Assembly (NCBI GenBank): GCA_903930515.1
Contig: CAIYYW010000197.1
Span: 1-21,860, forward strand
DNA length: 21,860 nt
Direction: 5' to 3'
From: an uncultured delta proteobacterium
GTDB taxonomy: Bacteria; RBG-13-61-14; DRUE01
A program made the translations under genes and the position numbers. This document shows, piece after piece, positions 1,021 through 21,507 of this stretch; within the stretch, counting starts at the first letter, position 1; every line of letters starts with the position of its first letter. The notes beneath the pieces were generated by a model, which saw nothing but the letters and a program-made list of their open reading frames with translations, was not told the DNA's origin and ran no database searches.

Positions 1021-2412
1021 ATGAGGGCATTGATTGTTGATGATGAGATAAACATCCGTAAAGTTTTGAGAGTGATACTCGAAGAGAGCGATTTTGAGGT
1101 CCACGAGGCTGCAAATGTTTCTGATAGTGTCATAACAATAAAGGAAAATTATTTTGACGTAGCGATCATCGATATCAGGTTGCCGGATGGATCAGGTATC
1201 GATGTGCTCAGGACGATAAAAGAGAATAGCCCTGCAACAGTCGTATTGGTAATTACTGCCTTTGCGTCAACTGAAACCGCTGTTGAGACTATGAAAGCCG
1301 GGGCTTATGATTATGTGACGAAACCTTTCAATCTCGATGAGATCAGGATAATCCTCAAGAATATCAGCGAAAAAATATTGCTCGAAAACAGGGTCAAAGA
1401 ACTTCAGCAATATGCTGATGAGTATCAGAACATGATCGGCAAATCCGAGGCCATGCAGCGGCTTTTCAAAGTAATTGATAAAGTGGCACCATTTGATTCC
1501 CATATATTGATTATCGGTGAGAGTGGTTCCGGAAAGGAACTTGTCGCAAAGGCTCTGCATAACGGAAGCAGGAGGGCCAATAAGCGGCTCGTGGCCATAA
1601 ACTGCGCGAGCTTGCCTTCGGAACTTCTTGAAAGCGAGCTTTTCGGATATTCTAAAGGTGCTTTTACCGGCGCCTATGCCTCCAAGAGGGGTTTGATAGA
1701 GGATGCAGACGGCGGGACTCTATTTTTAGACGAGATCGGCGAGATGCCGCTTTCTCTTCAGGCAAAACTGCTGAGGTTTCTCGAGGACAAGAAGATCAGG
1801 CCCCTGGGAAGCGGAAAAGAGATTGATGTTGATGTCAGAGTCGTCGCAGCAACTAATAAAACATTCAGGGAGTTGATCGAAAGGGGGGAGTTTAGAGAAG
1901 ATCTTTACTACAGACTTTCGACATTCGAATTAATGGTTCCTTCATTACGGGAACGGCGTGAAGATGTCCCTATTCTTGCCGACCATTTTATAAAGCTTTT
2001 TTCGAGAAAATTCGAAAAAAAGATTACGAAAGTGGATCCGGGTTTTATGGACTATATAATGCAGAGTGAATTACGTGGCAATGTAAGGGAGCTGAAAAAT
2101 ATCATTGAGCGGATGCTCATCCTTTCCAGCGGCGAGGTGGTTACCCTCAAAGACCTTCCGCCCGGAATTATGATGGGGGAAGGGGATACCGCGGTCAATG
2201 TTTTTTCCCAGCCCAAACTCAAGGACGCCCGGAAAATTTTTGAAAGACAGTTCATCCTGCGCCAGTTGATTGAGCATAATTACGATGTCCCGGCCACCGC
2301 GGAATCGCTCGGGATGGACCGCACCACCCTCTACCGGAAAATGAAACAGCTCGGGATCAATCCCGAGGAGATGGAGCCGGATAAAAATACCGAGTCCAAG
2401 AGCTCTTCTTAA
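1021..2412 (+). CDS. Sigma-54-dependent response regulator (NtrC family; PilR/AtoC-like front, NtrX-like tail)
   Basis: Two-component regulator that activates sigma-54 promoters when phosphorylated, presumably by the preceding kinase (3-base gap). Receiver domain 1-120: acidic pocket D7-D8, phospho-acceptor D51, conserved K101. AAA+ domain about 138-365: Walker A GESGSGKE at 166-173, the sigma-54 contact loop GAFTGA at 213-218, Walker B GTLFLDE at 232-238, and GNVREL at 353-358. A Fis-type helix-turn-helix lies at about 418-445. The receiver and AAA+ parts look PilR/AtoC-like. The last ~100 residues (KDARKIFER, then LGMDRTTLYRKMKQLGI) look like NtrX. Base composition changes at the same place: by hand count about 40% GC at 1861-2100 and about 54% at 2101-2340. 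The gene may therefore be a recombinant or an assembly chimera. The length (463 residues) is normal. The 3' end overlaps the opposing membrane-protein gene by 56 bases. Confidence 0.93.
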   Translation: MRALIVDDEINIRKVLRVILEESDFEVHEAANVSDSVITIKENYFDVAIIDIRLPDGSGIDVLRTIKENSPATVVLVITAFASTETAVETMKAGAYDYVTKPFNLDEIRIILKNISEKILLENRVKELQQYADEYQNMIGKSEAMQRLFKVIDKVAPFDSHILIIGESGSGKELVAKALHNGSRRANKRLVAINCASLPSELLESELFGYSKGAFTGAYASKRGLIEDADGGTLFLDEIGEMPLSLQAKLLRFLEDKKIRPLGSGKEIDVDVRVVAATNKTFRELIERGEFREDLYYRLSTFELMVPSLRERREDVPILADHFIKLFSRKFEKKITKVDPGFMDYIMQSELRGNVRELKNIIERMLILSSGEVVTLKDLPPGIMMGEGDTAVNVFSQPKLKDARKIFERQFILRQLIEHNYDVPATAESLGMDRTTLYRKMKQLGINPEEMEPDKNTESKSSS

Positions 2413-5119
2413 AAATTGCGAGCAGGGTTAAAAAAATCATCGGCAGACCGAACCCGTAAAACTGGCCCAATCCGATTCTCCAACTCCAGGGGCGGAACAC
2501 GAATTTTAAATGGTGCCGGCCCGGATTAACCCGCACCGCTCGGAACAGATACTGGGCGCGATAAATCCGGATCGGTCCGTCATCCAGAATTGCCTGCCAG
2601 CCCGGAAGATTTGCGTCCGTCATAATCAGCCAGGCCGGTTTTTCCAGATTCACCTCAATCTCCACCAGGTCGGTCTCGTCCCGCAAAATCTCAATGCGAT
2701 CCCGCTCAGCCGGGCCCGCGGTCTTTAGCTCCGGTTCCTGCCCGGGATTTTTTCCAATCAAGAAAATTTGTTCCCGGGAAAATTTTCCCTCCCGGATCAG
2801 GCTCAGGGCTTGTCCTTCGGTCTCCACCCATTCAATCTTCCGGGTCAGGAAAAATCTGGAAACTTTATTAACTCGCTCATAGAGAAAAGGCCCGGAGTCG
2901 TCCAGCAAACGATAGTTCGGGTCAGGTTCGCCCGCCAGTTCCAGCGACCCGAAAACCGAATAATCCTGAACGGAATTTCCCTTCGGGCCGGGCAGGGTCG
3001 CGAGTCGGATCGTCATCCGCTCCGGAATCATCGCCGGATATTCTCGCCAGCCGGCTCGTTCCGATTCCGGATCACAGTAAAAGCGATAGAAAAGCAGGCG
3101 CGCTCCGGTTTCCGATCGGCCCAGAATAATAAATTCCGCGCCATCGGATCTGGAATCCGTTCCGGGCTGAATCCCGGTTTCAAAAATCAGTTCGCCGGGG
3201 CCGATCGGCTGATCCGGCTGAAGCCGGCCGGGAGGATGAATTAAAATCCCGGCCCGGGTTTTTCCCCCGAGCGAAAAATCGTTCCGGGCGAAATAATTCC
3301 GGGCCGGCGCCAGCAATTTCCCGGCTTGGAATTGATCAAGCAGGCTGAAGTTCCCCTGCCGATGATTGCTCAGCAAGTATCCGAAAAGCAAATCCTGTCC
3401 CGGGGAAGAAATTTTATCCAGCTTCAACGGCAAATAAAATCTCCCCTGTTCCAGAAAATCCCGGACCGCCTCGCCTTGATCTTTCCATTGATTGAGCGCG
3501 GAGAGAAACTCGTAATATGGCCGCGGGTAGAGCGAACCTCGCTCGCGGAGGTCCCGGAGCTGAAAAATCGACGCGGTATCCGGGGGTAGAATATTTTGAT
3601 CCGGGCTGTAAAATCGCCAGCGATGAGCGTCCAACTCAACCCGGTCCAGAAATTTCGGCCGCTGAATCTTAAAGGCTTCCGGGCCGTAAAACGGCGAGGT
3701 CAGGACGAAGCAGGAAAAGAGTTCCAGGCTGGAAATCAGCGTTAAGGAAACCGCGATCCATTCGGTTTTTTTGGAGCGGGAAAGGCGCCAGGATAAAATC
3801 AGAAGCATCAGGGAGGCGATCAAGAAAGCCGAAATGGGGAGCAAAAAATGCCTGGTGGGCAAATGGCCGCGGAACCGGAAGAAATGAAGGAATAGCCAGA
3901 GCGATATGCCGGCGAGCAGGACAAAATAGGCTTTGAGCTTTTGCCCGTTTTTGATCTGGTCCAGGCCGAATCCGGCCGCGATCACCACCGAGAGCGCCAT
4001 TACCGGCTGAAGATACCGGAAGTTTTGAAGTCGGTTGATAAAGAAAATGGAGGACAAAGAATGGAAGCCGGGCAAGCCGAATAAAATTCCCGCCAGAAAC
4101 AAGGAAAACAGCCAGAAGAAAACAAGGATGCCGGCGGATTTTTTCAGGTTAAGGATGGAGAAGAGCGCCAGCGAGACCAGGAAAAATCCCAGGTAGGAGG
4201 GAACCACCATAAACGGAAGGAATTCGGCGCTGAAATGGCGCGGCGGGCTTAGCCAGGGATCAAAAATCGGGGTGAAAAGCGCGATCAGATGATTGAGGTC
4301 AAAATAAAGTCTTCCCAGTCCTTCCGGATGATAACTCCATCCCTGAAAGACCGCTTCCAGCACCCGGGGAAACGCCGGATGAATCAGAAAAGTGAGCAGG
4401 AAGAGGAAAAACGCCAGAAAGATCCGGGGACGGGCTTGGGGGAAGATTTTGTCCGGATCAGATATTTTCTCGGCCGCGGAAAAAAAAGCAAAGGCGAAAA
4501 TATAAATTTCAAAGGCAAAAACCGGCTCGGGATGAAAGCCTCCGAGTTGGAGAAATTTGATTCCGAGATAGCAGAGCAAATCGCTTAATTTCAGATTACG
4601 GAACAGGCGGATCAGGAAGAGCAAGGTGAGCGGGAAAAACATCTCCACATTAAGGTCGACAAAGTTATGGAATTGGCGGAAGTATCCGCTGAACATATAT
4701 CCGATTGCCGAGAACAGCCCGGCGAGATGGGAAAGCCCTAGACCCCGGGCCAGCAGGTAGGTAAAAAATCCCAGCAGGATGAATTTTAAAAGCAGGGCGA
4801 ATTCAAATCCCGAATCCGTTCCCCACAGAAAGGACAGGAGCTTGATCGGATGAAAGATCGTGGCGGCCGTGGCCATCACCAACGGCGAGCCGAACCCGCG
4901 ATAGGGGTCCCAAAGGGCGAATTTGCCCTGCTGAAGCGCGGAGGCCTCAACCCGGTCACCCGGATAAAAAAGCTGAACCGGAATCGGATCCCAGACAATT
5001 TCAAAAAGCATTTTTTTTCCTGAAATCCAGCGGGTGCTGAAGGCAAGCGTGGCCAGCAAAGACAGAATCAGGAATGCGCTCAGATATTGCCTTTTCGGAA
5101 TTGCTCTTAACGAGACCAT
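2357..5119 (-). CDS. YfhO-family polytopic membrane protein (putative GT-C-like)
   Basis: About 920 residues if started at the ATG at 5117-5119. YfhO proteins are large GT-C-like membrane proteins linked to glycosylation of cell-surface polymers; the substrate here is unknown. A first membrane helix near residues 11-31 is followed by the family hallmark around residues 45-80 (VWDPIP, then the FALWDPYRGFG stretch), roughly ten further hydrophobic helices to about residue 480, a long soluble and presumably extracytoplasmic region, and a last helix near the C-terminus. Just before that helix is the typical YfhO ending: LPGWQAILDDG, YRAQYLFRAV, then a PGRHHLKFVFRP stretch. An upstream in-frame ATG at 5179 would add 20 residues encoded largely by a palindrome, so it was not chosen. 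No clear ribosome binding site precedes 5119; a TATAAT box ends 6 bases before it, so the transcript could be leaderless, or the gene may be read from the upstream operon. Confidence 0.85.
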   Translation of the reverse strand: MVSLRAIPKRQYLSAFLILSLLATLAFSTRWISGKKMLFEIVWDPIPVQLFYPGDRVEASALQQGKFALWDPYRGFGSPLVMATAATIFHPIKLLSFLWGTDSGFEFALLLKFILLGFFTYLLARGLGLSHLAGLFSAIGYMFSGYFRQFHNFVDLNVEMFFPLTLLFLIRLFRNLKLSDLLCYLGIKFLQLGGFHPEPVFAFEIYIFAFAFFSAAEKISDPDKIFPQARPRIFLAFFLFLLTFLIHPAFPRVLEAVFQGWSYHPEGLGRLYFDLNHLIALFTPIFDPWLSPPRHFSAEFLPFMVVPSYLGFFLVSLALFSILNLKKSAGILVFFWLFSLFLAGILFGLPGFHSLSSIFFINRLQNFRYLQPVMALSVVIAAGFGLDQIKNGQKLKAYFVLLAGISLWLFLHFFRFRGHLPTRHFLLPISAFLIASLMLLILSWRLSRSKKTEWIAVSLTLISSLELFSCFVLTSPFYGPEAFKIQRPKFLDRVELDAHRWRFYSPDQNILPPDTASIFQLRDLRERGSLYPRPYYEFLSALNQWKDQGEAVRDFLEQGRFYLPLKLDKISSPGQDLLFGYLLSNHRQGNFSLLDQFQAGKLLAPARNYFARNDFSLGGKTRAGILIHPPGRLQPDQPIGPGELIFETGIQPGTDSRSDGAEFIILGRSETGARLLFYRFYCDPESERAGWREYPAMIPERMTIRLATLPGPKGNSVQDYSVFGSLELAGEPDPNYRLLDDSGPFLYERVNKVSRFFLTRKIEWVETEGQALSLIREGKFSREQIFLIGKNPGQEPELKTAGPAERDRIEILRDETDLVEIEVNLEKPAWLIMTDANLPGWQAILDDGPIRIYRAQYLFRAVRVNPGRHHLKFVFRPWSWRIGLGQFYGFGLPMIFLTLLAIFKKSSWTRYFYPAPSPRD

Positions 5120-5125
5120 CAATTT

Positions 5126-5154
5126 ATTATATCCGCTCGCGCCTTCTGCTCCAA
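5126..5154 (-). promoter_or_regulatory. Candidate promoter for the YfhO-family gene
   Basis: On the minus strand a perfect TATAAT (5126-5131) lies 17 bases from TTGGAG (5149-5154), a -35 box with only the TTG conserved. The -10 box ends 6 bases before the preferred ATG, so transcription would begin almost at that codon. The position, just after the operon's last gene and a palindrome, fits an independent transcription start. The weak -35 and absent leader leave it uncertain. Confidence 0.4.
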
Positions 5155-5167
5155 AAACCAATCTCGT

Positions 5168-5205
5168 GGGGCGCGACATTCCGGTCGCGCGAACTAGAAC
5201 GCCCC
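5168..5205. repeat. Nested GC-rich palindrome between two genes
   Basis: An inner perfect inverted repeat GCGCGAC / GTCGCGC spans 5171-5190 with a 6-base loop. An outer pair GGGGCG (5168-5173) / CGCCCC (5200-5205) encloses it and shares bases with it, so two alternative hairpins are possible. The element covers the last four codons and stop of the PilZ/HEAT gene. On the minus strand no T-run follows directly (the first short T-tract comes about 13 bases later), so it is a poor intrinsic terminator. It could be a REP-like dispersed palindrome or an mRNA 3'-end stabiliser. Confidence 0.55.
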
Positions 5206-6033
5206 GCTTTGTCTTTTTAAAAGGAGTTTCAGGGCATTGGATTTGATCTGGTTGCGGAGGTTCTGGGACTTGGCGATTACCGCGAGCTGGCGCTGGTTGA
5301 GGCCGTTCAAAAGGGTGAGCGCAAGCGGGAGCGAGGTTTTGGGATGGACCACCATCTGGTACCGGATTTCCTCGTTCTGCCCCCAGGACGCGTTGCGGGA
5401 CAGTTCGGAGATGATTTCTGCGGTGATTGAGGGATGCTTGAACATCTGGAGCACTTCTCCCGCGGTCAGATGCGGGTTCTGGATGATGAACCGGAACAGC
5501 ATCCGGTCGCCTTCCTGGATCAGGATGGAGAGCGCCTTGCGGTTGCCGCGCCTGGCCAGGGAAATCTTCTCGAGCTTGCTCAGCTTCCGGACCGCCTGGT
5601 AGAGGTTGGACATATCCATCCCGGCGAGGGAAATCTTCTTCTCAATCGCCTTGACTTCCTCTTCCGAATCCGGCTCCGGGTCCAGCGCATTCAATTCTTT
5701 GTCCGCCGGCCCAGCCTCTCCCGCTTCCGGCTCGGCCGTGGGTTCCGGCTCAGGCTCCGGCGGCGCCGCGGCCGGGATTTTCTCTTGTAACTGTTTGAGC
5801 CAATCCGCGTTTTCCTCAAGATTAAGCGCGACCCCCGCGGGAAAAATCGCGACCACTTCGGCCCGGGCCGGGACCGGGTTTTCTATTCCGGGCAGTCGGA
5901 GTTCCACCTGAATTTTTTTCCGCAACTCGAGTTGGAATTCTCCGGGAAGGAACAGGCCGAAATTTTTCAGGTTGGACTCAAACTCCTGCCGGAACTCATC
6001 CCAGTTGGAAAAATTTCGCTCCAGTTTATCCAT
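5194..6033 (-). CDS. PilZ-like plus HEAT-like repeat protein, function unknown
   Basis: A 279-residue cytoplasmic protein with no signal peptide or membrane segment. The start chosen is the ATG at 6031-6033, which shares one base with the stop of the gene before it (TGATG), implying coupled translation; a longer open frame to 6093 only shadows that gene. Residues about 22-85 resemble a PilZ-type beta-barrel (ELRKKIQVELRLPG, then PARAEVVAIFPAGVAL), but the usual RxxxR and DxSxxG c-di-GMP-binding signatures are not evident, so nucleotide binding is doubtful. Residues 88-126 are a Pro/Glu-rich linker. Residues about 143-275 are helical HEAT-like repeats (RRGNRKALSILI, NPHLTAGEVLQMF, HPSITAEIISEL, HPKTSLPLALTLL), a pattern I associate with conserved uncharacterised proteins of deltaproteobacteria and relatives. 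It is the last of three coupled signalling-type genes. The domain calls are by eye. Confidence 0.7.
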   Translation of the reverse strand: MDKLERNFSNWDEFRQEFESNLKNFGLFLPGEFQLELRKKIQVELRLPGIENPVPARAEVVAIFPAGVALNLEENADWLKQLQEKIPAAAPPEPEPEPTAEPEAGEAGPADKELNALDPEPDSEEEVKAIEKKISLAGMDMSNLYQAVRKLSKLEKISLARRGNRKALSILIQEGDRMLFRFIIQNPHLTAGEVLQMFKHPSITAEIISELSRNASWGQNEEIRYQMVVHPKTSLPLALTLLNGLNQRQLAVIAKSQNLRNQIKSNALKLLLKRQSGAF

Positions 6034-6785
6034 CAGCCCTTCAGGCCCTGCGCTTCCAGCTCCCGTTTGGCTTCCCGGCAATTGGCGTTGCACCGGAGCG
6101 CTTCGCGGAACTCCTGGATCGCCTGATCTTTTTTGCCTTCATCCTTGAGGATTTTTCCCAGGAACACATGCACGGAATCCATATTGGGGTTCATCTTGAT
6201 CGCCTGCCGGATCTTTCCCTTGGCCATTTCCCTGCGCGATTCCAGCTTGAACTCCGGGTTGGAATAGATGCTCCAGCCCAGGTATCCGAAGTATTCCGGC
6301 TCGTCCGGCCGGAGCTCCACCGCTTTTTCAAACATCTTCTGAGCATTCCCCCAGTCCCGGGCCCGGACCGATTTGATCCCTTCCTGGAGATATTTCTCCG
6401 CCTCCAGTCCTCGCGAGGGAGCTCCCGACTTTTCCGGAGGCCGCAGCTTGGCCAGGTATTGCTCCCGCCGCTCCTGGTTCCGGAGCGACTCGTAGGCCTT
6501 GATGATCTCGGTATTGATCTCCTCCAGTTTCATTTCCAGCTCCGGGTCCATCCGGGCGGAAAAGTTTGCCCGCTCAAATCCATTCATCCGGTCCCGATAG
6601 GCCTGTTCCACTTCCGGGTCCTGCGCGGATTGCTCCACCCCGAGCAGGCCGAAATAATTCATCCCTTTCATCTGGAGATAAAACTCCCCGATCTGGTCCG
6701 GGGATTCTTTTTCCTCTTCCGTCTCCTCCATCTCAACCGCTTCCGGCGCCTCCGCGGAAATCACGATCCCTTCGGTTCGGACCAA
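6033..6785 (-). CDS. J-like domain plus TPR protein (HPD motif absent)
   Basis: A 250-residue cytoplasmic protein. The start is a TTG at 6783-6785, chosen because a strong purine-rich site (GAGGAGGAGG) lies just 3-4 bases upstream; no ATG or GTG nearby is so placed. It overlaps the preceding PATAN gene by 25 bases and its stop overlaps the next start by one base. Residues 1-35 are acidic and probably disordered. Residues about 43-115 follow the DnaJ J-domain pattern (NYFGLLGV, then AYRDRM, then IIKAYESLRNQERREQYL), but the HPD tripeptide needed to stimulate DnaK is missing, so it is probably a protein-binding J-like fold, not a co-chaperone. Three TPR-type helical pairs follow at about 127-160, 161-200 and 203-234 (AQKMFEKAVELRPDEPEYFGYLG; AIQEFREALRCNAN). 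Probable scaffold role; specific function unknown. Confidence 0.78.
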   Translation of the reverse strand: MVRTEGIVISAEAPEAVEMEETEEEKESPDQIGEFYLQMKGMNYFGLLGVEQSAQDPEVEQAYRDRMNGFERANFSARMDPELEMKLEEINTEIIKAYESLRNQERREQYLAKLRPPEKSGAPSRGLEAEKYLQEGIKSVRARDWGNAQKMFEKAVELRPDEPEYFGYLGWSIYSNPEFKLESRREMAKGKIRQAIKMNPNMDSVHVFLGKILKDEGKKDQAIQEFREALRCNANCREAKRELEAQGLKG

Positions 6786-7552
6786 AACCTCCTCCTCGCC
6801 GGAGCCAATTCCCGGATCCGGGAAACGGTTTTGCCCTCCGGTCCGATCAGTCCGCAGAGCGCGAAGAGATAGATCAGCTTGCGGGCAAAGGGGTAGGCGG
6901 GTTCCAGGTTGATCAGGTCGGCCAGGGTTTTGCTGCCGTCAATTGCTTTTGAGAATTCCAGCTCCGGGTCGGTCAGCTTGAACAACTCCAGCCGTTGCCG
7001 ATAGTTTTCCAGCCCGTCCAGGGGCCGGGTTCCCAGCAAGTTCAATTCCCGGTCCAGCGATTCCTCGGGAAAGTAATGATAAACCCCGTCCTTGAGCAAA
7101 TGATGGAAAGCGAATTCAAAACGGGTGATCCTGGAGAGGAATTCAGTCTCGGAATAAAACCGGTATTGTCCTTCCTGGAAGCTGAACGCAGTGCTGATCT
7201 TATGAAGGGTTTGAGACTTCATCACCTGGTACAGCTCCTTGGGCTTGAGCTTGCCCAGCTTGACCAGGGCGGCTCCCTGCTGGAGGTTCTCGCTCATCAT
7301 CAGCTCCAGGCTCTTTTCAAAATCCTCCTCGCTGATCTTTCCCTGCTTGACCAAATACCTCCCGAGGGTCTCGTCCCGGAGCGTGCTTTCCACATAAGCC
7401 GGAATCCCCTGCACCAGGAACACCGCCTTGCTGATCCCCTCCTGCGCCAAGGCCAGTCTCCCGGTCTGCTCCTGGTCGTAAAGATGGTTGAGCAGCCTGG
7501 GGACCGGGTGAACGCCCAACTCGCCTTGAAATAATATTTGCGGCTGGTTCAT
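6761..7552 (-). CDS. PATAN / DUF4388-domain protein
   Basis: A 263-residue cytoplasmic protein. Residues about 8-60 show the PATAN/DUF4388 pattern: FQGELGVHPVPRLLNHLY, then TGRLALAQEG, AVFLVQGIPAYVES and ETLGRYLVKQGKI, the last leading into a helical extension to about residue 130. PATAN domains are known from cyanobacterial PatA-type regulators and are common in deltaproteobacterial signalling proteins, where they are thought to mediate protein-protein contacts. The C-terminal half (to 263) is helical and unrecognised. The ATG at 7550-7552 overlaps the stop of the upstream ComEA-like gene in an ATGA junction. The gene overlaps the next one by 25 bases. The tight coupling with the J-TPR and PilZ/HEAT genes suggests the three products act together; that is inference. 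Confidence 0.8.
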   Translation of the reverse strand: MNQPQILFQGELGVHPVPRLLNHLYDQEQTGRLALAQEGISKAVFLVQGIPAYVESTLRDETLGRYLVKQGKISEEDFEKSLELMMSENLQQGAALVKLGKLKPKELYQVMKSQTLHKISTAFSFQEGQYRFYSETEFLSRITRFEFAFHHLLKDGVYHYFPEESLDRELNLLGTRPLDGLENYRQRLELFKLTDPELEFSKAIDGSKTLADLINLEPAYPFARKLIYLFALCGLIGPEGKTVSRIRELAPARRRFWSEPKGS

Positions 7553-8082
7553 CCCTGGTCCCGGATCGTGAAATAGTTTTGGATCCGCTCCATCATTTTT
7601 TCCTTGATCCAGGGAAGCTGTTTCAACTGCTCGAAATTTTCAAAGCCTCCCAGCCCCCCCCTGAGCTTCAACAACTCCGCGCTTTTTTTATAGCCGATCC
7701 CGGGAAGCAATTCAAAGTCGACCGCGCCGGCCTGGTTGAGCAGCATTTTTTTGCCGCTCGCCAACCGGACCGAACTGGAGGCCCCTCGGCGGATTAGTTC
7801 GCATTGAGCGCCGGAAACCCTGAGCAAATCCAGTTCCTTCAACGGCTGCTCCGGGCAGGATTTTGCGAACTGTCCCGCGGTTTGAATCCGGCCCAGGTCC
7901 AATAGATATTCCTGATCTTCCCGGACCGCCTCGGCAAATGATTCCAAGCCCGGCCGGCTTTTCCGGGAGGGAAAAGATTTAAGAACGGCCGGAAGGACCG
8001 CGATCAAAAGCAAAGCGGCCAAAACCAGGATCAACTCATTATTCGCCCTGGCGGAATTTTTTTCTTGCCCTTCTTTTTTCAT
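7549..8082 (-). CDS. Membrane-anchored helix-hairpin-helix protein, ComEA-like
   Basis: A 177-residue protein: a short basic N-terminus, one membrane helix at about 16-34, a roughly 80-residue linker, and a C-terminal helix-hairpin-helix DNA-binding domain at 115-172. The first hairpin is canonical (FELLPGIGYKKSAELL). The second position, normally a G-I-G turn in ComEA, reads LPWIKEK and is degenerate. ComEA-type proteins bind incoming DNA outside the cytoplasmic membrane during natural transformation; whether this protein does so is unproven. The start chosen is the ATG at 8080-8082 (MKKEGQEK, a typical n-region), which overlaps the end of cimA by 44 bases; the frame is open 10 codons further to another ATG at 8112. 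The stop overlaps the next gene in ATGA. No other competence gene is in the window. Confidence 0.75.
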   Translation of the reverse strand: MKKEGQEKNSARANNELILVLAALLLIAVLPAVLKSFPSRKSRPGLESFAEAVREDQEYLLDLGRIQTAGQFAKSCPEQPLKELDLLRVSGAQCELIRRGASSSVRLASGKKMLLNQAGAVDFELLPGIGYKKSAELLKLRGGLGGFENFEQLKQLPWIKEKMMERIQNYFTIRDQG

Positions 8083-9649
8083 CTTTATAAAGTTTATAGT
8101 CAATGCTATCAATCAATGCCTGCCAGCTTGCCTCAATGATATTGTCCGAAACCCCCACGGTTCCCCAATGATCCTTGCCGTCGGTGGATTCAATCAAGAC
8201 CCGGACCAGGCTCGCGGTTCCCAGCCCGGCCGGAAGCACCCGCACCTTGTAATCCACCAGGCTCACCTCTTTCAAGCGTGGATAAAAACGCTCTAAAGCC
8301 TTGCGCAAAGCCGCGTCCAGAGCGTTGACCGGCCCCACCCCGGAAGCCGCGGTGTGTTCAACCGCCCCTTCCGCTTCCACCATTATGGTCGCCTCGGCCC
8401 GGGGCACCTTGTCCTCCGACCGCTTCTCGTCAATCACGCGGAATCCTTTGAAGTTGAAAAACCTCTTCCTCTTCCCGATCGCCTTTTTCATCAGGAGTTC
8501 AAAGCTGGCCTCGGCCCCGTCAAACTGATATCCGCGGCGCTCCAGCTTTTTCACTTCCTTGAGAATCATCCGCGCGATCGGGCTTTGGGCGTCCAGCCGA
8601 AGCCCGGCTTCCCGGGCCTTGTATAAAACCGTGCTCCTGCCGGCCTGGTCCGAGATCAAAATCCGTCTCCGGTTCCCCACCCGGGCCGGATCAATATGCT
8701 CATAGGTCCTGCTGTTTTTGAGAACGGCGTCCGTATGTTGCCCGCCCTTGTGAGCGAAGGCGCTGTCTCCCACAAAGGGCTGATGGTTTTCGGGAGGCCG
8801 GTTCACCAGTTCCCAGACCAGGTGGGAAATTTCCCGGAGTTGCTTGAGGTTCCCCACCGGGATCGCCCGGTAGTTGAGCTTGAGCATCAGGTCCGGGATC
8901 AGCGCGCACAAGTCCGCGTTGCCGCAGCGCTCCCCGAAGCCGTTGATCGTGCCCTGGACCATCTCCACTCCCTGCTCCACCGCGAGGATGGAATTGGCCA
9001 CGGCTAATCCGCAATCGTTATGGCTGTGGATGCCGAACCGGGCTGGGAATATCCGGATCACTTCCTGGCAGGACCGGACCACCTCCCCCGGCATAGCCCC
9101 GCCGTTGGTGTCGCAGAGGCAGATCAATTCCGCGCCCGCCTCAAAGGCCCTGGCCAAACAGTCCAGGGTATAACTCCGGGAATCGCGGTACCCGTCGAAG
9201 AAATGCTCGGCGTCGAAAAAAACCTGCTTGCCCTGCTGGCGCAGATAGTCAATGGTGTCTGCGATCATTCTCAGGTTTTGATCCAAGCCGGCGCGGAGCA
9301 CTTCCCGGATATGAAGCTCCCAGGTCTTGCCAACGATGCTCACGATTTTTACCGGGAGTTTTCCCAGCAAACTCAATTGCGGGTCCTTGCCCGGGGTCAG
9401 ATCCTTTTTCACCGTGGACCCGAACGCGACCAGCCGGGTCCGCTTCAAGCCCAGCCCGAGGATTTGCCGGAAAAATTTCAGGTCCTTGGGGTTAGCGCTC
9501 GGCCATCCCCCCTCCAGATACTGGATCCCCAACTCGTCCACCTTCTCCGCGATCCGAAGCTTGTCCTCGAAACTGAAATTCACATCCTCGCTCTGGCTTC
9601 CGTCCCGAAGCGTGGTGTCATAGATCAATATTTGTCGTTTTTGGCTCAT
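8039..9649 (-). CDS. cimA: (R)-citramalate synthase
   Basis: Condenses pyruvate and acetyl-CoA to (R)-citramalate, the first step of the threonine-independent isoleucine route. At 536 residues it has the usual length. The catalytic TIM barrel carries YDTTLRDGSQ (10-19), LCDTNGG (178-184), the metal-binding HSHND (208-212) and NGFGERCGNADL (236-247). Later come HKGGQHTDAVL and the VGNRRRILISDQAG region, then the C-terminal LeuA-type allosteric domain, where isoleucine feedback is expected. GWPSANPKD near residue 48 separates CimA from isopropylmalate synthases, as the family is usually described. The ATG follows the lysC stop with no gap (TGAATG), and the 3' end overlaps the ComEA-like gene. 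Pairing with lysC puts aspartate-family and isoleucine supply in one transcript. Confidence 0.96.
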   Translation of the reverse strand: MSQKRQILIYDTTLRDGSQSEDVNFSFEDKLRIAEKVDELGIQYLEGGWPSANPKDLKFFRQILGLGLKRTRLVAFGSTVKKDLTPGKDPQLSLLGKLPVKIVSIVGKTWELHIREVLRAGLDQNLRMIADTIDYLRQQGKQVFFDAEHFFDGYRDSRSYTLDCLARAFEAGAELICLCDTNGGAMPGEVVRSCQEVIRIFPARFGIHSHNDCGLAVANSILAVEQGVEMVQGTINGFGERCGNADLCALIPDLMLKLNYRAIPVGNLKQLREISHLVWELVNRPPENHQPFVGDSAFAHKGGQHTDAVLKNSRTYEHIDPARVGNRRRILISDQAGRSTVLYKAREAGLRLDAQSPIARMILKEVKKLERRGYQFDGAEASFELLMKKAIGKRKRFFNFKGFRVIDEKRSEDKVPRAEATIMVEAEGAVEHTAASGVGPVNALDAALRKALERFYPRLKEVSLVDYKVRVLPAGLGTASLVRVLIESTDGKDHWGTVGVSDNIIEASWQALIDSIDYKLYKDEKRRARKKFRQGE

Positions 9650-10903
9650 TCAGTTCTTCGCCCGCTTTTTCGGTTTGGACCCGGCCGGCGCCTTGGCCAG
9701 ATTGAATGCGGAATGGAGTTCGCGCACGGCCAGCTCGGTGTATTTGGCGTCAATCAGGCAGGAGACCTTGATCTCACTGGTGGAGATGGCCTGGATGTTG
9801 ATCCCGGCCTGGCCCAAAGTCTCAAACATCCGGCCGGCCACCCCCGCGGCGCTCCTCATCCCCACGCCCACGATGCTGACTTTGGCCACATTCGGGTCAA
9901 TCTTGATCTCGCCCGCGGCTAGTTTCCTGCTTGCGACATCGGCCAGCTTCTTCGCCCGAGCCATATCTTCCTTGCGCACGGTGAAGGTCAGGTCGGTGTA
10001 ACCCTTCTCGCTCACATTCTGAACGATCATATCCACGATAATGTGGGCGTCTCCCAGGCTTTTGAAAACAGTCGCGGCCACCCCGGGCTGGTCCGGTACC
10101 CGGGATACCGTGATCTTGCATTCGTTTTTGTCATAAGCCACTCCGCTGACAACCGTCTTTTCCATTTCCTTGTCCCCCTTTACCACCAAAGTTCCCGGCA
10201 GGTCCATCAGACTGGACAGGACCGCCAGTTTGACATTGTAATTCTTCGCCAGTTCCACCGACCGGATCATCAGCACCTTGGCGCCCGCGCTCGCCATCTC
10301 CATCACCTCGTCGTAACTGATTTTGTCCAGCTTGCGCGCGTCCGGGCAAATGTTCGGGTCCGCGGTGTAAACCCCGTCCACATCCGTGTAAATCTCGCAC
10401 AAGTCCGCGTTCAAGGCCGCGGCCAAAGCCACCGCGGTGGTGTCCGATCCCCCCCGTCCCAAAGTATGGATATTGCCCTCCTGGTCCACGGCCTGGAACC
10501 CGGCCGCCACCACGATGGATCCGTGATTAAGCAATTTCCGTATTTTCTGCGTTCCGATCTTTTTGATCCGGCCGTCCTTGTAAACCCCCTCGGAAAAGAT
10601 CGGGATTTGGTTCGCCACCAGCGAGCGGGCCTTCCCGCCGATACTCTGGATCGCGATCGCAAGCAGCGCCACCGAGACATTCTCTCCGGTGGAGATCAGG
10701 GCGTCATATTCGCGCAGGTCCGGCAGTTCGGTCAAATCCAGCGCCAGCTTAATCAGCCGGTTGGTCTCCCCGGCCATCGCGCTCACCACCACCACCACCT
10801 GGTCCCCCTGCCGCTGTCTCGAAAGCGCCTTCTGCGCCACATTCCGGATTCGCTCCAGGGTACCCACGCTGGTCCCCCCATATTTCTGCACAATCAAAGC
10901 CAC
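9650..10903 (-). CDS. lysC: Aspartate kinase
   Basis: Phosphorylates L-aspartate, the entry step to lysine, threonine, methionine and diaminopimelate. The start is the GTG at 10901-10903, set by AAGGAGGT ending about 7 bases upstream, giving 417 residues; the frame is open 18 codons further but that part only overlaps tsaE. Kinase domain: KYGGTSVG at 7-14, STGE at 71-74, LGRGGSDTTAVAL at 148-160 and TDVDGVYTADP at 173-183. Two ACT domains follow at about 264-330 and 341-400 (VPDQPGVAATVF; SIVGVGM), as in single-function, feedback-inhibited aspartokinases. A basic tail ends the protein (KPKKRAKN). It sits 5 bases after tsaE and directly against cimA. No lysine riboswitch is seen or would fit in that gap. 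Confidence 0.97.
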   Translation of the reverse strand: MALIVQKYGGTSVGTLERIRNVAQKALSRQRQGDQVVVVVSAMAGETNRLIKLALDLTELPDLREYDALISTGENVSVALLAIAIQSIGGKARSLVANQIPIFSEGVYKDGRIKKIGTQKIRKLLNHGSIVVAAGFQAVDQEGNIHTLGRGGSDTTAVALAAALNADLCEIYTDVDGVYTADPNICPDARKLDKISYDEVMEMASAGAKVLMIRSVELAKNYNVKLAVLSSLMDLPGTLVVKGDKEMEKTVVSGVAYDKNECKITVSRVPDQPGVAATVFKSLGDAHIIVDMIVQNVSEKGYTDLTFTVRKEDMARAKKLADVASRKLAAGEIKIDPNVAKVSIVGVGMRSAAGVAGRMFETLGQAGINIQAISTSEIKVSCLIDAKYTELAVRELHSAFNLAKAPAGSKPKKRAKN

Positions 10904-10908
10904 TGATC

Positions 10909-11391
10909 CTACCTCCTTTGATCTTCGGTGATAACCCGGATAAGCCGCTCCTGCCATTTTGCCGGGTCGTCGGTTTCAATTTTCAATCCCCGCTCAGTTT
11001 CTCCGATCACCGATAATTTTATCCATAATGCGCCTTTTGGGACAATGAGCGGGAATTTGTCCGCCCATTCCACCGCGCAAACCCCGTCTCCGAAAAAATA
11101 TTCCTCGTACCCAATCCCGGAAAGCTCGTCCGCGGAGCCGATCCGGTAAAGGTCAAAATGATAAAGCCAGAGCCGGCCCGGATATTCCCGGAGCAAAATG
11201 TAAGTCGGGCTTGCCACCGGCACGCTCAAATCGCAACCCAGTCCGGAGGCGATCCCCTTGACCAGCTCGGTCTTTCCCGCTCCCAGTTCTCCGGAAAGCG
11301 CGACCAACTCTCCCTCGGCCAAGACCTTTCCCAGCTCCGCTCCGAATTGAATGGTATGTTTCGCGCAGCCGGTTTTCAGCTCCCAATTCAT
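10909..11391 (-). CDS. tsaE: tRNA t6A biosynthesis ATPase TsaE
   Basis: ATPase that works with TsaB and TsaD to add threonylcarbamoyl to A37 of ANN-decoding tRNAs. At 160 residues it is the normal size. Walker A is GELGAGKTE (34-42); SPTY follows at 61-64, then HFDLYR (78-83), GIGYEEYF (92-99) and VEWADKF (107-113), all TsaE hallmarks. The ATG at 11389-11391 overlaps the nnr stop (ATGA junction); a longer open frame upstream is a shadow of nnr. The stop lies 5 bases before lysC. tsaB and tsaD are not in the window. Confidence 0.96.
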   Translation of the reverse strand: MNWELKTGCAKHTIQFGAELGKVLAEGELVALSGELGAGKTELVKGIASGLGCDLSVPVASPTYILLREYPGRLWLYHFDLYRIGSADELSGIGYEEYFFGDGVCAVEWADKFPLIVPKGALWIKLSVIGETERGLKIETDDPAKWQERLIRVITEDQRR

Positions 11392-12974
11392 TCTTCGGTT
11401 CCAAAATGTTGATCCAGGATCCATCTCCGCGCCGGCCGGATTTTCCCGATCAAATCCGTGGCGATGATCCCGATCGCGACCGATTCCTGTCCCGCTAAAT
11501 CTCCGGCCTTGCCGTGCAGATACACTCCCAGGATCGCCGCGTCCACCGGATCGTATTCCTGAGACAACAGCCCGGCGATGATCCCGGTGAGCACATCCCC
11601 CATTCCCGCGCTCGCCATCCCGGCATTGCCGGAGTGGTTGATGAAGACTTCCCCGAACGGGCCCGCGATCACGGTGTTGGCTCCCTTTAAGACCACGATC
11701 GCCTGCCAGTCCTTGGCGAATTTCCGGGCCACCCCGACCCGATCCTTCTGGATTTCGGGAACGGGCAGGCCGCAAAGCCGGCTCATCTCTCCGGGATGCG
11801 GGGTCAGGATCAAAGGAGCCTGGATTTTCTTGAGGATGTCCATCTGGTTCGCGAGCGAATTCAATCCGTCCGCGTCCACCACCACCGGCGCGGTTGCCGA
11901 GACCAGAATTTCTTTTACAAATTGGTCAATCTCTTTTCCCTGCCCGATTCCCGGCCCGAGCGCGATCGCGTTTTTCCCGCGGATGAATTCCAGGGCGGCC
12001 GGGATGGAAACCTTTCCGAACTTCCGGTCCTGATCCGGGATCGGCTCGGTCATTACTTCGGTGAGCTTGACTTCAAAAATGTCGTTGAGCGAGGCCGGGA
12101 CCGCGAGTGTGACCAACCCGGCTCCGGAGCGGAGCGCGCTTTCCGAGGCCATTGCCGCAGCGCCGGTCTTGCCAGGAGAGCCGGCGAAAATAACGGTATG
12201 TCCGTGATCGCCCTTGTGGCTGTCCGGCGCCCGGGGAAGGAGCAGGGGGAAGGCCAGATCCTGGTCGGTCACGAAAGTTTTTATATTTTTGGAAAGAGCA
12301 GCCGGGATGCCGATGTCAATCACTTCCAGTTCACCGGTCAGTCCGGCGCCCGGGAAACAGTAATGACCGATCTTGGCCAGGCCGAAAGTGACCGTGGCTT
12401 CCGCCCGGACCGCCACTCCCATAATTTCTCCGGTGGACGCGTTGACCCCGCTCGGGAGATCCAGCGCGAGCACGGGGATGGCGTATTCGCCGGTGATCTC
12501 GTTGATGAATTCAACGGCCGCGCGGGGAAGGCCCTTGATTTCGGAATCAAGGCCGGTGCCGAAAATGGCGTCAATGATCAGATCGGTCTCGGTAAGCCTC
12601 TGCTTCAGGTTCCGCAATTGATCCTCGTTCTCCACTTCAATCAACTCGCCGGTCAGTTTCAAATACCGGTCCAGGTTGAGTTTGGCGTCTCCCGTCAGCG
12701 CTTCTTTCCTGCCCAGCAGCGCTACGGTGGGAAATACCCGCCGGTTGAGCAGGTATCTCGCGATCACAAACCCGTCTCCGCCGTTGTTGCCTTTGCCGCA
12801 AAAGATCACCGTGTCTTCCAGGAGCGGGAATTTGCTCTCAATAAATTCAAACGCCCCTTTGCCCGCGGATTCCATCAACACCTCTCCGGGAATCCCGAAC
12901 TCCTCAATCGCCCTCCGATCCAGCTCCCGCATCTCCTCGGCGCTGACAACCTTGTTCTTCCACAAACGATTCAT
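11388..12974 (-). CDS. nnr: Bifunctional NAD(P)H-hydrate epimerase / ADP-dependent dehydratase
   Basis: Repairs hydrated NADH and NADPH: the N-terminal NnrE (YjeF_N) domain interconverts the R and S hydrates and the C-terminal NnrD domain dehydrates the S form. At 528 residues it is the usual fused form. NnrE covers about 1-220, with the Rossmann motif GKGNNGGDG at 60-68 and LDLPSGVNASTG further on. NnrD covers about 240-510, with SHKGDHGHTVIFAGS, the GALRSGAGL-like SALRSGAGLV, LTPHPGEMSRL, and the catalytic NAGMASAGMGDV at 450-461. The start overlaps the acpS stop by four bases and the stop overlaps the tsaE start by four bases, so three genes are translationally chained. Confidence 0.96.
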   Translation of the reverse strand: MNRLWKNKVVSAEEMRELDRRAIEEFGIPGEVLMESAGKGAFEFIESKFPLLEDTVIFCGKGNNGGDGFVIARYLLNRRVFPTVALLGRKEALTGDAKLNLDRYLKLTGELIEVENEDQLRNLKQRLTETDLIIDAIFGTGLDSEIKGLPRAAVEFINEITGEYAIPVLALDLPSGVNASTGEIMGVAVRAEATVTFGLAKIGHYCFPGAGLTGELEVIDIGIPAALSKNIKTFVTDQDLAFPLLLPRAPDSHKGDHGHTVIFAGSPGKTGAAAMASESALRSGAGLVTLAVPASLNDIFEVKLTEVMTEPIPDQDRKFGKVSIPAALEFIRGKNAIALGPGIGQGKEIDQFVKEILVSATAPVVVDADGLNSLANQMDILKKIQAPLILTPHPGEMSRLCGLPVPEIQKDRVGVARKFAKDWQAIVVLKGANTVIAGPFGEVFINHSGNAGMASAGMGDVLTGIIAGLLSQEYDPVDAAILGVYLHGKAGDLAGQESVAIGIIATDLIGKIRPARRWILDQHFGTEE

Positions 12975-13363
12975 TTCCTTCCCTCCGATCCCTCCATCAC
13001 CGCGACCGCGAACGCGTATTCATCCTCGTGGCTCAGGCTCAGATGAATCTTTTCCGCCCCCATCTCAGCCGCTCTTTTTTCCGCCTGGCCCAAAAGCCTG
13101 AGCTCCGGCTTGCTTCCTGGTTTCGCCAGCACTTCAATCTCCTTGAACCTGATCCCGCCGAACACTCCGGCGCCCATGGCTTTTTGCACGGCCTCTTTGG
13201 CCGCGAACCAGGCCGAGAATTCCTGGCCCGGACGAGCCCGGCTTTTCCCTTCTTCAATCTCCCGGTCAGTGAAGGCTTTTTTCAGGAACCGGTCCCCGTA
13301 ATTCTTCAGCAGCTTCTCGGTCTTGCTGATCCGGACCGCGTCTATGCCCACTCCGATTACCAT
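12971..13363 (-). CDS. acpS: Holo-[acyl-carrier-protein] synthase
   Basis: Transfers 4'-phosphopantetheine from CoA to acyl carrier protein. 130 residues, normal for AcpS. The family signature starts at VIGVGIDAVRI, with metal-binding D8. FTDREIEEG follows, then FAAKEAVQKAMG with metal ligand E57, and LSLSHEDEYAFA near 108-119 with the conserved His. The ATG at 13361-13363 has GAGGG five bases upstream; the in-frame TTG at 13399 lacks support and would add residues not typical of the family. It lies 36 bases after pdxJ and overlaps nnr by four bases. Confidence 0.95.
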   Translation of the reverse strand: MVIGVGIDAVRISKTEKLLKNYGDRFLKKAFTDREIEEGKSRARPGQEFSAWFAAKEAVQKAMGAGVFGGIRFKEIEVLAKPGSKPELRLLGQAEKRAAEMGAEKIHLSLSHEDEYAFAVAVMEGSEGRK

Positions 13364-13399
13364 TTTTCCCTCGCTTGATTCAAAACCGCGGCTTGCCAA

Positions 13400-14128
13400 T
13401 CACCCTTTGGACCGGATCAGTTCCACCATTTCCCGGACCGCCTGGGGTAGTCCCACGAACACGGCTCGGGCGATGATGGAATGTCCGATGTTGTATTCTT
13501 CAATCTCTTCAATCTGGAGCAATCTTTTGAGGTTGTGATAGTTGAGTCCGTGTCCGGCAAAGATCTGAAGACCAAGTTTGCGTCCGGCCTTGACCGATCC
13601 GAGGATGGCTTGGAATTCATGGTTTTCTTCCGGCAGGCTCTTGGCCTCGCAATATTTTCCGGTATGGATTTCCACCGCGTCCGATCCGGCCTTGTGGCTG
13701 GCTCTGATCTGGTCCAGGTCCGGATCAATGAAGAGGGACGAGCGGATCCCGGCTTCCTTCAGCATATTCACCGTGCGGGTGAGGGCGTCCTGGTGCCGCA
13801 TCACATCCAGGCCCCCTTCGGTGGTGATCTCTTCGCGCTTTTCCGGGACCAGGGTGGCGGAGAAGGGTTTGAGATACAGGGCGATCTTCAACATCTCCTG
13901 GGTGTTGGCCATTTCCAAATTGAGCCGGGTCTGGATGGTTTCCTTGAGGATTTTCAGGTCCCGGTCCTGGATATGGCGGCGGTCTTCGCGGAGATGCACG
14001 GTGATCTGGTCGGCGCCGGCCTGCTCCGCGAGATACGCGGCATAAACCGGGTCCGGGTTGGGAACGGTTTTTCGCGCCTGCCGCAAAGTGGCGATATGGT
14101 CTATATTTACTCCCAGCCTCGGATACAT
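13400..14128 (-). CDS. pdxJ: Pyridoxine 5'-phosphate synthase
   Basis: Last ring-closing step of the DXP-dependent vitamin B6 pathway: condenses 1-deoxyxylulose 5-phosphate with 3-amino-2-oxopropyl phosphate. 242 residues, usual length. Signature motifs are GVNIDHIATLRQAR (6-19), HLREDRRHIQDRD, then a phosphate-binding GHGLNYHN region and IGHSIIARAVFVGL near the C-terminus. The ATG at 14126-14128 is set by AAGGAGGAG located four bases upstream; the longer open frame to 14176 runs into a non-coding-looking spacer. pdxJ next to acpS is a widely conserved pair. Confidence 0.97.
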   Translation of the reverse strand: MYPRLGVNIDHIATLRQARKTVPNPDPVYAAYLAEQAGADQITVHLREDRRHIQDRDLKILKETIQTRLNLEMANTQEMLKIALYLKPFSATLVPEKREEITTEGGLDVMRHQDALTRTVNMLKEAGIRSSLFIDPDLDQIRASHKAGSDAVEIHTGKYCEAKSLPEENHEFQAILGSVKAGRKLGLQIFAGHGLNYHNLKRLLQIEEIEEYNIGHSIIARAVFVGLPQAVREMVELIRSKG

Positions 14129-14233
14129 TTGCTCCTCCTTGTCAAGGGACACGGTTGCTTGAACCTCAAATCTCAAATTTCAGAAAGAACAACCAACCAT
14201 AAACTACAAACCAAAAATCTCTGTGGTAAGCAT
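14129..14233 (-). other. 105-base spacer between glmM and pdxJ
   Basis: The longest gap inside the ftsH-to-PilZ/HEAT gene run. Apart from the pdxJ ribosome binding site it holds no recognised element. On the plus strand 14160-14215 is A/C-rich and nearly free of G, unlike the coding sequence on either side. A TTGACA on the minus strand at about 14140-14145 is too close to the pdxJ start to be its -35 box. No hairpin with a T-run is seen. Confidence 0.6.
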
Positions 14234-15583
14234 TCAGGATATGGCTTTGCGGAAGCTGTCCGCGATCTCCTGGGCCAACTCCTTGACCAGATGCTCCTTT
14301 TCGCCTTCCACTAAAATCCGCACCAGGGGCTCGGTTCCCGAATAGCGGACCAGGACTCGGCCTTTCCCTCCCAGCTTGGACTCGGCCTTGCTGATGGCCT
14401 TTTTCACCTTTTCCATCTTCTCAATCGGCTTCCGCTCTTTCACCCGAAGGTTGATCAGGGACTGCGGATACTTCTCCAACAGCATCGCCAGCTCGGATAG
14501 TTTTTTGCCTTTCTTCTGCATCACCGCCAAAAGGTTGAGCGCGCCGATGATCCCGTCGCCGGTGGTGGCATGATCAAGGAAGATCAGATGTCCGCTCTGC
14601 TCTCCGCCGAAGTTGTAATTCTTTTCAATCATTTCCTGCACCACATATCGGTCTCCGACCCGGGTCCGCACCACCTTGCCTCCCGCGGCTTCAATCACCT
14701 TGTTCAGGGCCAAATTGCTCATCACGGTGGTGACTAATGTTTTCTTGTTCAGCTTCTTCTCCTTGAGCATCTCTGTCCCGCAGATCGCCATCATATAATC
14801 TCCGTCCCAATAGGCGCCGTTCTCGTCCACAATCGCCACCCGGTCCGCGTCCCCGTCCACCGCCACCCCGATGTCGGCCCTGGTTTTGCGGACTTCCTTG
14901 CCGATCAATTCCGGATAGAGCGCGCCACAGTTCTTGTTGATGTTCTCGCCGTTGGGGGATACCCCGACTGAAACCACTTCCGCTCCCAGTTCCGCGAAGA
15001 TCACCGGAGCCACCTTGTAGGACGCTCCGTTGGCGCAGTCCACCGCTATTTTCAGCCCGTCCAGGGTCATCCCTTTGGGGAATACGCTTTTGCAGAATTC
15101 AATGTATCGGCCCTGGGCGTCGTCCACCCGGAAGGCCTTGCCGATTTCGCGCGCGGTCGGACGGAGCGAGTCAATCTTTCCGGAAAAAATCAATTCCTCA
15201 ATCATCAACTCGTCCTGGTCCGGAAGCTTGAAGCCGTCTCCGGCGAAGATCTTGATCCCGTTATCCTGGTAGGGGTTGTGGGAGGCGCTGATCATAATCC
15301 CGGCGTCCGCTCTCATCGCCGTGGTGATGAAGGCGATGGCCGGGGTGGGAAGGGGTCCGAGCAGGATGGCGTCCACGCCCATTGAACAAATCCCGGAGGC
15401 GATCGCTTGCTCCAGCATATAACCGGAGAGGCGGGTGTCCTTTCCGATCACGATCTTGTGCCGGTGGTTTTTGTTCTTGAAAATGTATGCGGTGGCCCTC
15501 CCGACCAGGATCATCATTTCGCTGGTCAGGGGATGCACATTGGCAATGCCCCTGATCCCGTCAGTCCCGAATAATTTTCTCAA
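14234..15583 (-). CDS. glmM: Phosphoglucosamine mutase
   Basis: Converts glucosamine 6-phosphate to glucosamine 1-phosphate on the way to UDP-GlcNAc for peptidoglycan and LPS. 449 residues, typical. Motifs: LFGTDGIRG at 4-12, active-site loop ISASHNP with phospho-serine S101, metal loop DGDADR at 243-248, sugar-binding GGEQSGH at 326-332, and phosphate-binding [10 protein letters not shown] at 413-422. The start is a TTG at 15581-15583, supported by GGGAGGT about 7 bases upstream and by the family's usual N-terminus (MRKLFGTDG). It lies 18 bases after folP. In Geobacter-type operons cdaA and a ybbR-like gene usually lie between these two; they are absent here. Confidence 0.97.
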
Positions 15584-15601
15584 GCCCGTAACCTCCCAAA
15601 C

Positions 15602-16825
15602 TCAGGCAAAGATGTTTTTCCCTGCCCGGATTGCACCTGCCATTATAGCAAATCCTCTGATTTTTTCAGGTTCATGCACCCGGAGGATATTCGCGCCGCA
15701 AAGAATCCCGGCAACCACGCTCGCGGCCGTGCCTTCAACCCGGTCGTCCTTCTCGGCCTTGAGCACGGCGCCGATGAATCTTTTGTTGCTCGGTCCCAAA
15801 AGAATCGGCCGTCCCAGCGATTTCAGTCTCCATAAATCCCGGATCAGTTCCAGGTTATGGTCAACCGTTTTTCCGAAGCCGATCCCGGGATCAATAATTA
15901 TTTTCTCCTCGTCCACCCCGGCCTCCAAAGCGCGTTGCATCCGCTCGCGCAAAAACCCGACCACCTCTCCGAACAAATCATTGTAGGTCGGATTTTCCTG
16001 CATATCCCTGGGGCTGCCCTTGATGTGCATCAGCACCAGACCGGCTTTGCTCTTCGCGGCCACCTCGGCCATCTTGGGATCAAATCCCAGGCTGCTGGTG
16101 TCATTGATGATGCTCGCGCCTATTTCCATTGCCTGTTTCGCCACTTCGGCCTTGCGGGTGTCAATTGAGATCAGGGCCTTGCCGATCCGGGATTTGATTT
16201 TCTCCAATACCGGCATCAGCCGCTTCAACTCCTCTTCCAGGCTCACCGCTTCCGAGCCGGGCCTGGTGCTTTCCGCGCCCATGTCAATGATCTCGGCGCC
16301 GGAAACTGCCATTGCCTCGGCCCGCTCAAGGGCTTTTTCCGTGTCAAAATATTTTCCGCCGTCGTAAAACGAGTCCGGGGTCAGGTTGATGATCCCCATC
16401 AGGACCGGTTTTTCTCCCAGTTCCAGAACTCCGCCGGGCAGTTCCAGTCGGAATTTTTTCCGCTCGGATCTTTCAATGGTCCGGACCAACTCCTCTCCCA
16501 GCTTGGGCAGCTTGAACGGCTGGGGCTTAAGCTTTTCCGCCAGGTTGAGGAATTGCTGGTAGGTCCCCATCACGATCACCTTGCATTTCTTTTCCTGGTT
16601 GGTCAGGGCCTTGGACGGGGTCGCGGCCTCTCCGCCCAAAGCCAGCATTTCTTCCTTCAGTACCAGCGCGGAGGGGGATGAGAGATTATCAATCTGGATG
16701 CAGTAATGGCGCGCCTTTCTCGCCATTTTGTCCAGGCCCATCGGAGTGCACCTGGTTTGAGATAATCTCTGTTCGGCTTCCTCCCCATCACGGATCGCCG
16801 TGAGCAGGGGATTAAAATCGGTCAT
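15602..16825 (-). CDS. folP: Dihydropteroate synthase, long form
   Basis: Joins p-aminobenzoate to hydroxymethyl-dihydropterin pyrophosphate in folate synthesis. 407 residues: the catalytic TIM barrel starts near 140 (MGIINLTPDSF at 143-153, DMGAESTRPG at 181-190, SIDTRK, INDTSS, DPGIGFGKT, LLGPSNKRF). An extra N-terminal part of about 135 residues precedes it (CTPMGLDKMARKARHYCIQI; KEEMLALGGEAA). Such long DHPS proteins are known from deltaproteobacteria and some other lineages; the role of the extension is unclear to me. No ribosome binding site stands before the ATG at 16823-16825, but the ftsH stop is 5 bases away, so translation is probably coupled. Confidence 0.95.
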   Translation of the reverse strand: MTDFNPLLTAIRDGEEAEQRLSQTRCTPMGLDKMARKARHYCIQIDNLSSPSALVLKEEMLALGGEAATPSKALTNQEKKCKVIVMGTYQQFLNLAEKLKPQPFKLPKLGEELVRTIERSERKKFRLELPGGVLELGEKPVLMGIINLTPDSFYDGGKYFDTEKALERAEAMAVSGAEIIDMGAESTRPGSEAVSLEEELKRLMPVLEKIKSRIGKALISIDTRKAEVAKQAMEIGASIINDTSSLGFDPKMAEVAAKSKAGLVLMHIKGSPRDMQENPTYNDLFGEVVGFLRERMQRALEAGVDEEKIIIDPGIGFGKTVDHNLELIRDLWRLKSLGRPILLGPSNKRFIGAVLKAEKDDRVEGTAASVVAGILCGANILRVHEPEKIRGFAIMAGAIRAGKNIFA

Positions 16826-16830
16826 TGAAA

Positions 16831-18747: not shown

Positions 18748-18794
18748 TACCGATTCCTCCTTAAAAGGTCCTTGCTTACCGCCGTATTTTAGTG

Positions 18795-18823
18795 ATTTTA
18801 ACACTCATTTGGGTTGCTTTCAA
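18795..18823 (-). promoter_or_regulatory. Sigma-70-type promoter for the ftsH operon
   Basis: On the minus strand TTGAAA (18818-18823) and TAAAAT (18795-18800) are separated by exactly 17 bases. Transcription would start near 18788, leaving a leader of about 40 bases that contains the AAGGAGG site before the ftsH TTG. It lies in the 186-base gap behind the preceding gene, the natural place for an operon promoter. It is a sequence match only. Confidence 0.6.
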
Positions 18824-18933
18824 TCCCCGCGGCGAGGCAAATGGGGAAGGGGAGAAGGGGAAGAGCCGCCCTGGCCTTGAAAGATCAAAAGCGATTTTAC
18901 CGGAGAGGTTCGCCTGGAAGGCGGGGACGGGGA
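18824..18933. other. Spacer upstream of the ftsH promoter with a G-tract
   Basis: Between the stop of the beta-propeller gene and the ftsH promoter. The plus strand has three GGGG runs in a purine stretch at 18843-18865 and two more at about 18922-18932. A small inverted repeat, CGCCT / AGGCG with a 3-base loop, is at 18911-18923, but no T-run follows on the minus strand, so no terminator is called. No ORF is supported here. Confidence 0.5.
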
Positions 18934-19929: not shown

Positions 19930-19936
19930 TCTTGCC

Positions 19937-21139: not shown

Positions 21140-21172
21140 TGCCCATTCCTCTTGCGAAAACACCTTGATTAC

Positions 21173-21201
21173 ATTATATGTTGCGGCGGCCTTTTCCGCA
21201 A
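21173..21201 (-). promoter_or_regulatory. Promoter for the DUF362 / propeller gene pair
   Basis: On the minus strand TATAAT (21173-21178) lies 17 bases from TTGCGG (21196-21201). Transcription would start near 21166, giving a leader of about 27 bases before the preferred TTG start. The -35 box is only half-consensus but forms one arm of a perfect palindrome, which suggests control by a repressor or activator. Confidence 0.5.
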
Positions 21202-21210
21202 TTCTTGCGG
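21196..21210. promoter_or_regulatory. Operator-like palindrome over the -35 box
   Basis: CCGCAA-TTC-TTGCGG is a perfect 6-base inverted repeat with a 3-base centre, and its left arm coincides with the -35 hexamer. A third copy of TTGCGG occurs at 21181-21186, within the promoter spacer. No T-run follows, so a terminator reading is unlikely. The binding protein, if any, is unknown. Confidence 0.4.
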
Positions 21211-21243
21211 CACAAAATTGGAATGGTCAATCAATCGCGCCGC

Positions 21244-21495: not shown

Positions 21496-21507
21496 TGCGT
21501 CACCTCC

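Follow-up and report, generated by a model that had tools for sequence, protein, structure and literature searches.

A chimeric sigma-54 regulator gene in a binned deltaproteobacterial genome, very probably a misassembly of two organisms

Does the 463-aa sigma-54 regulator gene near the left end of this deltaproteobacterial contig belong to the organism in whose genome it is binned, or does it join parts of different origin? The window, meaning the whole stretch of DNA that was analysed, is the complete 21,860-bp contig C197, with a genuine contig end at base 1. It was binned in a draft genome of 401 contigs totalling 3.65 Mb (completeness 93.5%, contamination 2.4%). A first-pass annotation had proposed that the gene is chimeric, with a break inside a motif shared by sigma-54 activators. 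The relevant features are:

1-1017, + strand: PilS-like sensor kinase gene, 5′ end cut by the contig end (Pfam 6TM_PilS, HisKA and HATPase_c; identity to Nitrospirae-type proteins)
1021-2091, + strand: front of a PilR-like sigma-54 response regulator gene, residues 1-357, with the receiver, the AAA+ domain and part of the lid (identity, tree)
2087-2112, + strand: junction interval, GGGAGCTGAAAAATATCATTGAGCGG, coding for REL-KNIIER (GGGAG in contig C132, PilR conservation, GC breakpoint at 2107)
2092-2412, + strand: native ntrX tail, with the end of the lid and a Fis-type HTH (identity to the same-genus NtrX, NCBIfam NtrX, DNA colinearity)
2357-5179, - strand: native YfhO-like membrane protein gene (55% identity to the same-genus YfhO-like protein over its full length)
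2092-21860, no strand: native body of the contig (colinearity with contig G001:C348, GC of 56%)

Comparisons drew on G001, the one same-genus genome (locus L142 and contig G001:C348), and on L061, a locus of the Nitrospirae MAG ZodW_Metabat.371. Donor-type genomes besides L061 carry the label Nitrospirae-type from having been retrieved as relatives of the L061 genome.

Base composition changes sharply inside the gene. A rise in GC from about 40% to about 54% near position 2100 had been claimed, and the measured values are 39.2% in 1861-2100 and 54.2% in 2101-2340, a step matched between neighbouring 240-bp blocks at 0.7% of window positions. By maximum likelihood, a single GC breakpoint for the entire window falls at 2107 (lnL gain 72; positions 2074-2290 lie within 2 lnL units), and GC is 42.4% in 1-2086 against 56.0% in 2087-21860, the latter like the rest of the bin. 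The background consisted of 600 pieces of the same length, taken from 20 further contigs of the bin and from the native part of C197. None of these 600 pieces, which overlap each other and do not represent 600 independent samples, has a GC content as low as that of 1-2086 (mean 55.9%, SD 2.2%) or lies as far from the genome in tetranucleotide distance (0.545, against a mean of 0.224 and SD of 0.033). The tetranucleotide distance to L061 is 0.36 for 1-2086 and 0.68 for the adjoining native block. Third-position GC rises inside one reading frame, from 0.47 in the regulator front (0.45 in the kinase) to 0.69 in the tail. The proposed shift in codon choice at the break was likewise recovered: AGA/AGG to CGN arginine codons number 18:7 in the front and 1:5 in the tail, and TTA accounts for 4 of 37 and 0 of 11 leucine codons, respectively, although the tail is short and individual codon counts are weak. 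The further statement that everything upstream is AT-rich holds for 1-2086 as a block, which lies beyond all 600 control pieces, but not throughout, as the stretch 1501-1800 reaches 51% GC.

The upstream genes resemble those of another phylum. The kinase shares 50-62% identity with PilS-like kinases of about 25 Nitrospirae-type genomes, transmembrane domain included, while its best other match in its own genome reaches 32%. Its match to PF25323, the PilS transmembrane domain, scores 27.1 bits where the cutoff is 27 and is by itself marginal; the assignment is supported because the identity to the relatives spans the transmembrane part. Residues 1-356 of the regulator are 63-73% identical to nine Nitrospirae-type PilR proteins, in agreement with the PilR/AtoC-like front described earlier, with 69% identity to the L061 PilR against 39% to the G001 NtrX. 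A maximum-likelihood tree of this front, like that of the tail built with seven of the nine donor-type PilRs, places it among Nitrospirae PilRs with support of 100/100. As in known PilS/PilR two-component systems, a kinase with a PilS six-transmembrane match stands beside a PilR/AtoC-type regulator, in the same kinase-regulator order as in L061, where the pair is flanked by prepilin-like and type II/IV secretion platform genes (named by reading their sequences). In contrast, C197 carries only a fragment, in which the kinase lacks its start and the regulator its tail, and the window lacks target genes. Positions 1 to about 2091 are thus almost certainly a fragment of another, Nitrospirae-type organism, in which the last part of a pilS-like gene is followed by the front of a pilR-like one. 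The exact donor was not found in the collections searched, where the closest donor-type proteins reach only 62% (kinase) and 73% (regulator front), and the source species is therefore absent from those collections.

The binned genome has a kinase/sigma-54 regulator pair of its own on contig C107 (locus L152, 12374-14586), the nearest that it offers to the foreign pair. The kinase is 32% identical to the window kinase and the regulator 47% identical to the L061 PilR, and this is possibly the organism's own PilS/PilR system.

The regulator tail has different relatives. Residues 357-463 are 78% identical to the G001 NtrX and 28% to the L061 PilR, and residues 366-463 share 20-32% identity with the donor-type PilRs of the nine genomes. 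The tail groups with the G001 NtrX in its tree (support 95/91), and NCBIfam NtrX (NF051870) is the best family both for the tail and for the G001 protein, which bears out the earlier description of an NtrX-like C-terminus. The identity switch from the L061 PilR to the G001 NtrX occurs within one 20-residue step, and the same break appears against eight further donor-type genomes beyond L061. Compared separately, the two halves do not share a full-length orthologue and each has different closest relatives, with conflicting trees, so that the gene is indeed chimeric; no full-length protein resembling both halves to an even degree turned up among 60 relatives or the 80 best genome-contig loci. 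The 463-aa frame as a whole scores 384 bits against NCBIfam NtrX, under the 600-bit cutoff and below the AtoC and NtrC models.

From this point on the contig matches the same genus. The DNA of 2077-17651 is colinear with G001:C348, where the 13 native genes that were checked all keep their order, and positions from about 2092 to 21860 are native. The ntrX and yfhO-like genes overlap tail to tail by 56 bp (2357-2412), and G001 has the same 56 bp (L142:15655-15710). The surrounding DNA of the two genomes is about 65% identical. Further along, a minus-strand DUF4388-DnaJ-TPR gene occupies two frames in C197 (7552-6767 and 6800-6036) against one 506-aa frame in G001 (L142:10506-12026), which suggests a single-base frame slip at 6767-6800, either real or an assembly error.

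The missing front half of the native ntrX is found elsewhere in the bin. Contig C132 (3,244 bp) encodes a 716-aa NtrY and residues 1-362 of NtrX, which are 78% and 84% identical, respectively, to their G001 counterparts, and it ends at its own base 1 inside GHVRE. Since its direct k-mer overlap with the window is only GGGAG, the fit was established through alignment to the same-genus contig. The last base of C132 corresponds to G001 contig position 3237; the alignment of the window to that contig starts at 3223 with base 2077, and window base 2091 therefore also corresponds to 3237, so that C132 and the window abut without a gap. The C132 tail and window 2092-2412 together form one open 468-aa frame (the G001 NtrX has 469 aa), and the bin contains just one NtrX tail and no second. 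As in G001, the two parts yield a complete NtrX beside NtrY. Measured against the NtrY/NtrX system as modelled by NF051870, the G001 NtrX differs in scoring 474.5 bits, below the curated cutoff of 600, and it is classed as NtrX-like on its best-matching family and its gene neighbourhood. Taken by itself, the C132 front scores almost equally against NtrC (415.8 bits) and NtrX (412.2 bits). Neither C132 nor the G001 contig had any match in an Rfam search.

These comparisons also locate the join. The relatives change, and C132 stops, inside the GNVREL(KNIIER) motif, where the first-pass annotation had placed the break. The terminal GGGAG of C132 is identical to window 2087-2091, and the k-mer comparison showed no further overlap. 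On the right-hand side the Nitrospirae-type PilRs retain the motif through NIIER or NIIEK and then diverge; the two source genomes therefore probably have 2087-2112, some 26 bp, in common, with the right edge estimated from these relatives in place of the donor itself. The open reading frame passes cleanly through the join, which speaks against misassembly, though any join inside a shared in-frame motif would be expected to do the same.

The two origins, the position of the break and the fit of C132 are best explained by a misassembly of two organisms, to which we assign a probability of roughly 0.92 and in which the act of joining is ascribed to the assembler by inference. An assembler would have linked a Nitrospirae-type pilS/pilR fragment to the binned genome's ntrX tail, with the roughly 26 bp encoding the conserved REL-KNIIER motif as the bridge. 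The real genome order would then be ntrY, ntrX and the convergent yfhO-like gene, and ntrY with the front half of ntrX would have been left over as the separate contig C132, stopping at the join. Near-identical regions in different genomes are known to create chimeric contigs (PMC4381813). The present case resembles such metagenome contigs in that two organisms meet close to a contig end, probably at a short sequence that they share, and the true partner contig, here C132, stops at the same point. It differs in that the probable shared sequence encodes a short protein motif, where a transposon or rRNA gene would be usual, and the join therefore leaves an intact, plausible-looking gene. One detail fits less simply: the 5-bp overlap between C132 and the window is shorter than the k-1 overlap expected from a plain de Bruijn branch, and trimming of ends must therefore be assumed under misassembly.

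Of the two causes first offered, recombination and misassembly, the latter is favoured because the native ntrX front sits on C132 and ends exactly at the break. Recombination would mean that a Nitrospirae-type pilS-pilR fragment entered ntrX at the conserved motif in some of the cells, yielding a living hybrid in which the DNA-binding tail of NtrX is rewired to the sensor input of a foreign PilR. The hybrid frame is intact and its domains are joined at a homologous place, so that the protein could in principle fold, and the event, if real, would offer an interesting example of regulators exchanging domains. Yet the bin holds the native ntrX front together with ntrY, and with only one ntrX tail a true fusion would need a mixed population for C132 to be continued at all. 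The foreign part is also cut off by the contig end at 2.1 kb, and its composition is that of another organism. Such interphylum recombination in part of the population, which needs coexisting recombinant and native forms and an assembly that halted exactly at the break, is very improbable.

A misassembly within a single genome, in which a PilS/PilR pair of the same organism, perhaps transferred in, was mistakenly joined to ntrX, has a slim chance of being correct. The bin encodes several sigma-54 regulators, and the motif could join paralogues. Against this, none of the 600 bin pieces matches the composition, the remainder or a second copy of the foreign PilS/PilR pair is missing from the bin, G001 has no regulator above 43% apart from NtrX, and C107 already carries a different PilS/PilR-like pair of this genome. 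The joining of two same-genome paralogues was accordingly rejected on the composition, the missing remainder and the conflicting trees. As for a single, unchimeric gene with an ordinary gradient in composition, sigma-54 activator tails do vary, and so does GC within genes, as the stretch 1501-1800 illustrates. This reading is negligible in probability: the closest relatives of the halves differ with strong opposing tree support, and C132 supplies the missing half. It was rejected on the 600-piece background, the bin search and the conflicting trees.

Under misassembly of two organisms, the 463-aa gene is almost certainly not a real feature and should not be annotated; for the present, C197 is best trimmed at about 2091, with C132 marked as adjoining it. 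Given an intact frame of normal length that matches all expected domain models, an automatic pipeline would take it for a genuine regulator, so that the genome would be credited with a spurious PilS/PilR-NtrX fusion and deprived of its true NtrX. In other respects the bin is of respectable quality (completeness 93%, contamination 2.4%), and contamination estimates can evidently miss a foreign contig end of 2 kb.

Two other contig ends in the bin are low in GC. On contig C1 (locus L144), positions 1-1250 have 37% GC and adjoin native sequence of about 58% GC encoding a serA-like gene; this end could be a second chimeric end or an acquired gene. On contig C350 (locus L161), the end at 1-2000 has about 42-52% GC and was a compositional outlier in the bin scan, with an apparent radical-SAM protein followed by apparent phosphate transport genes of normal GC.
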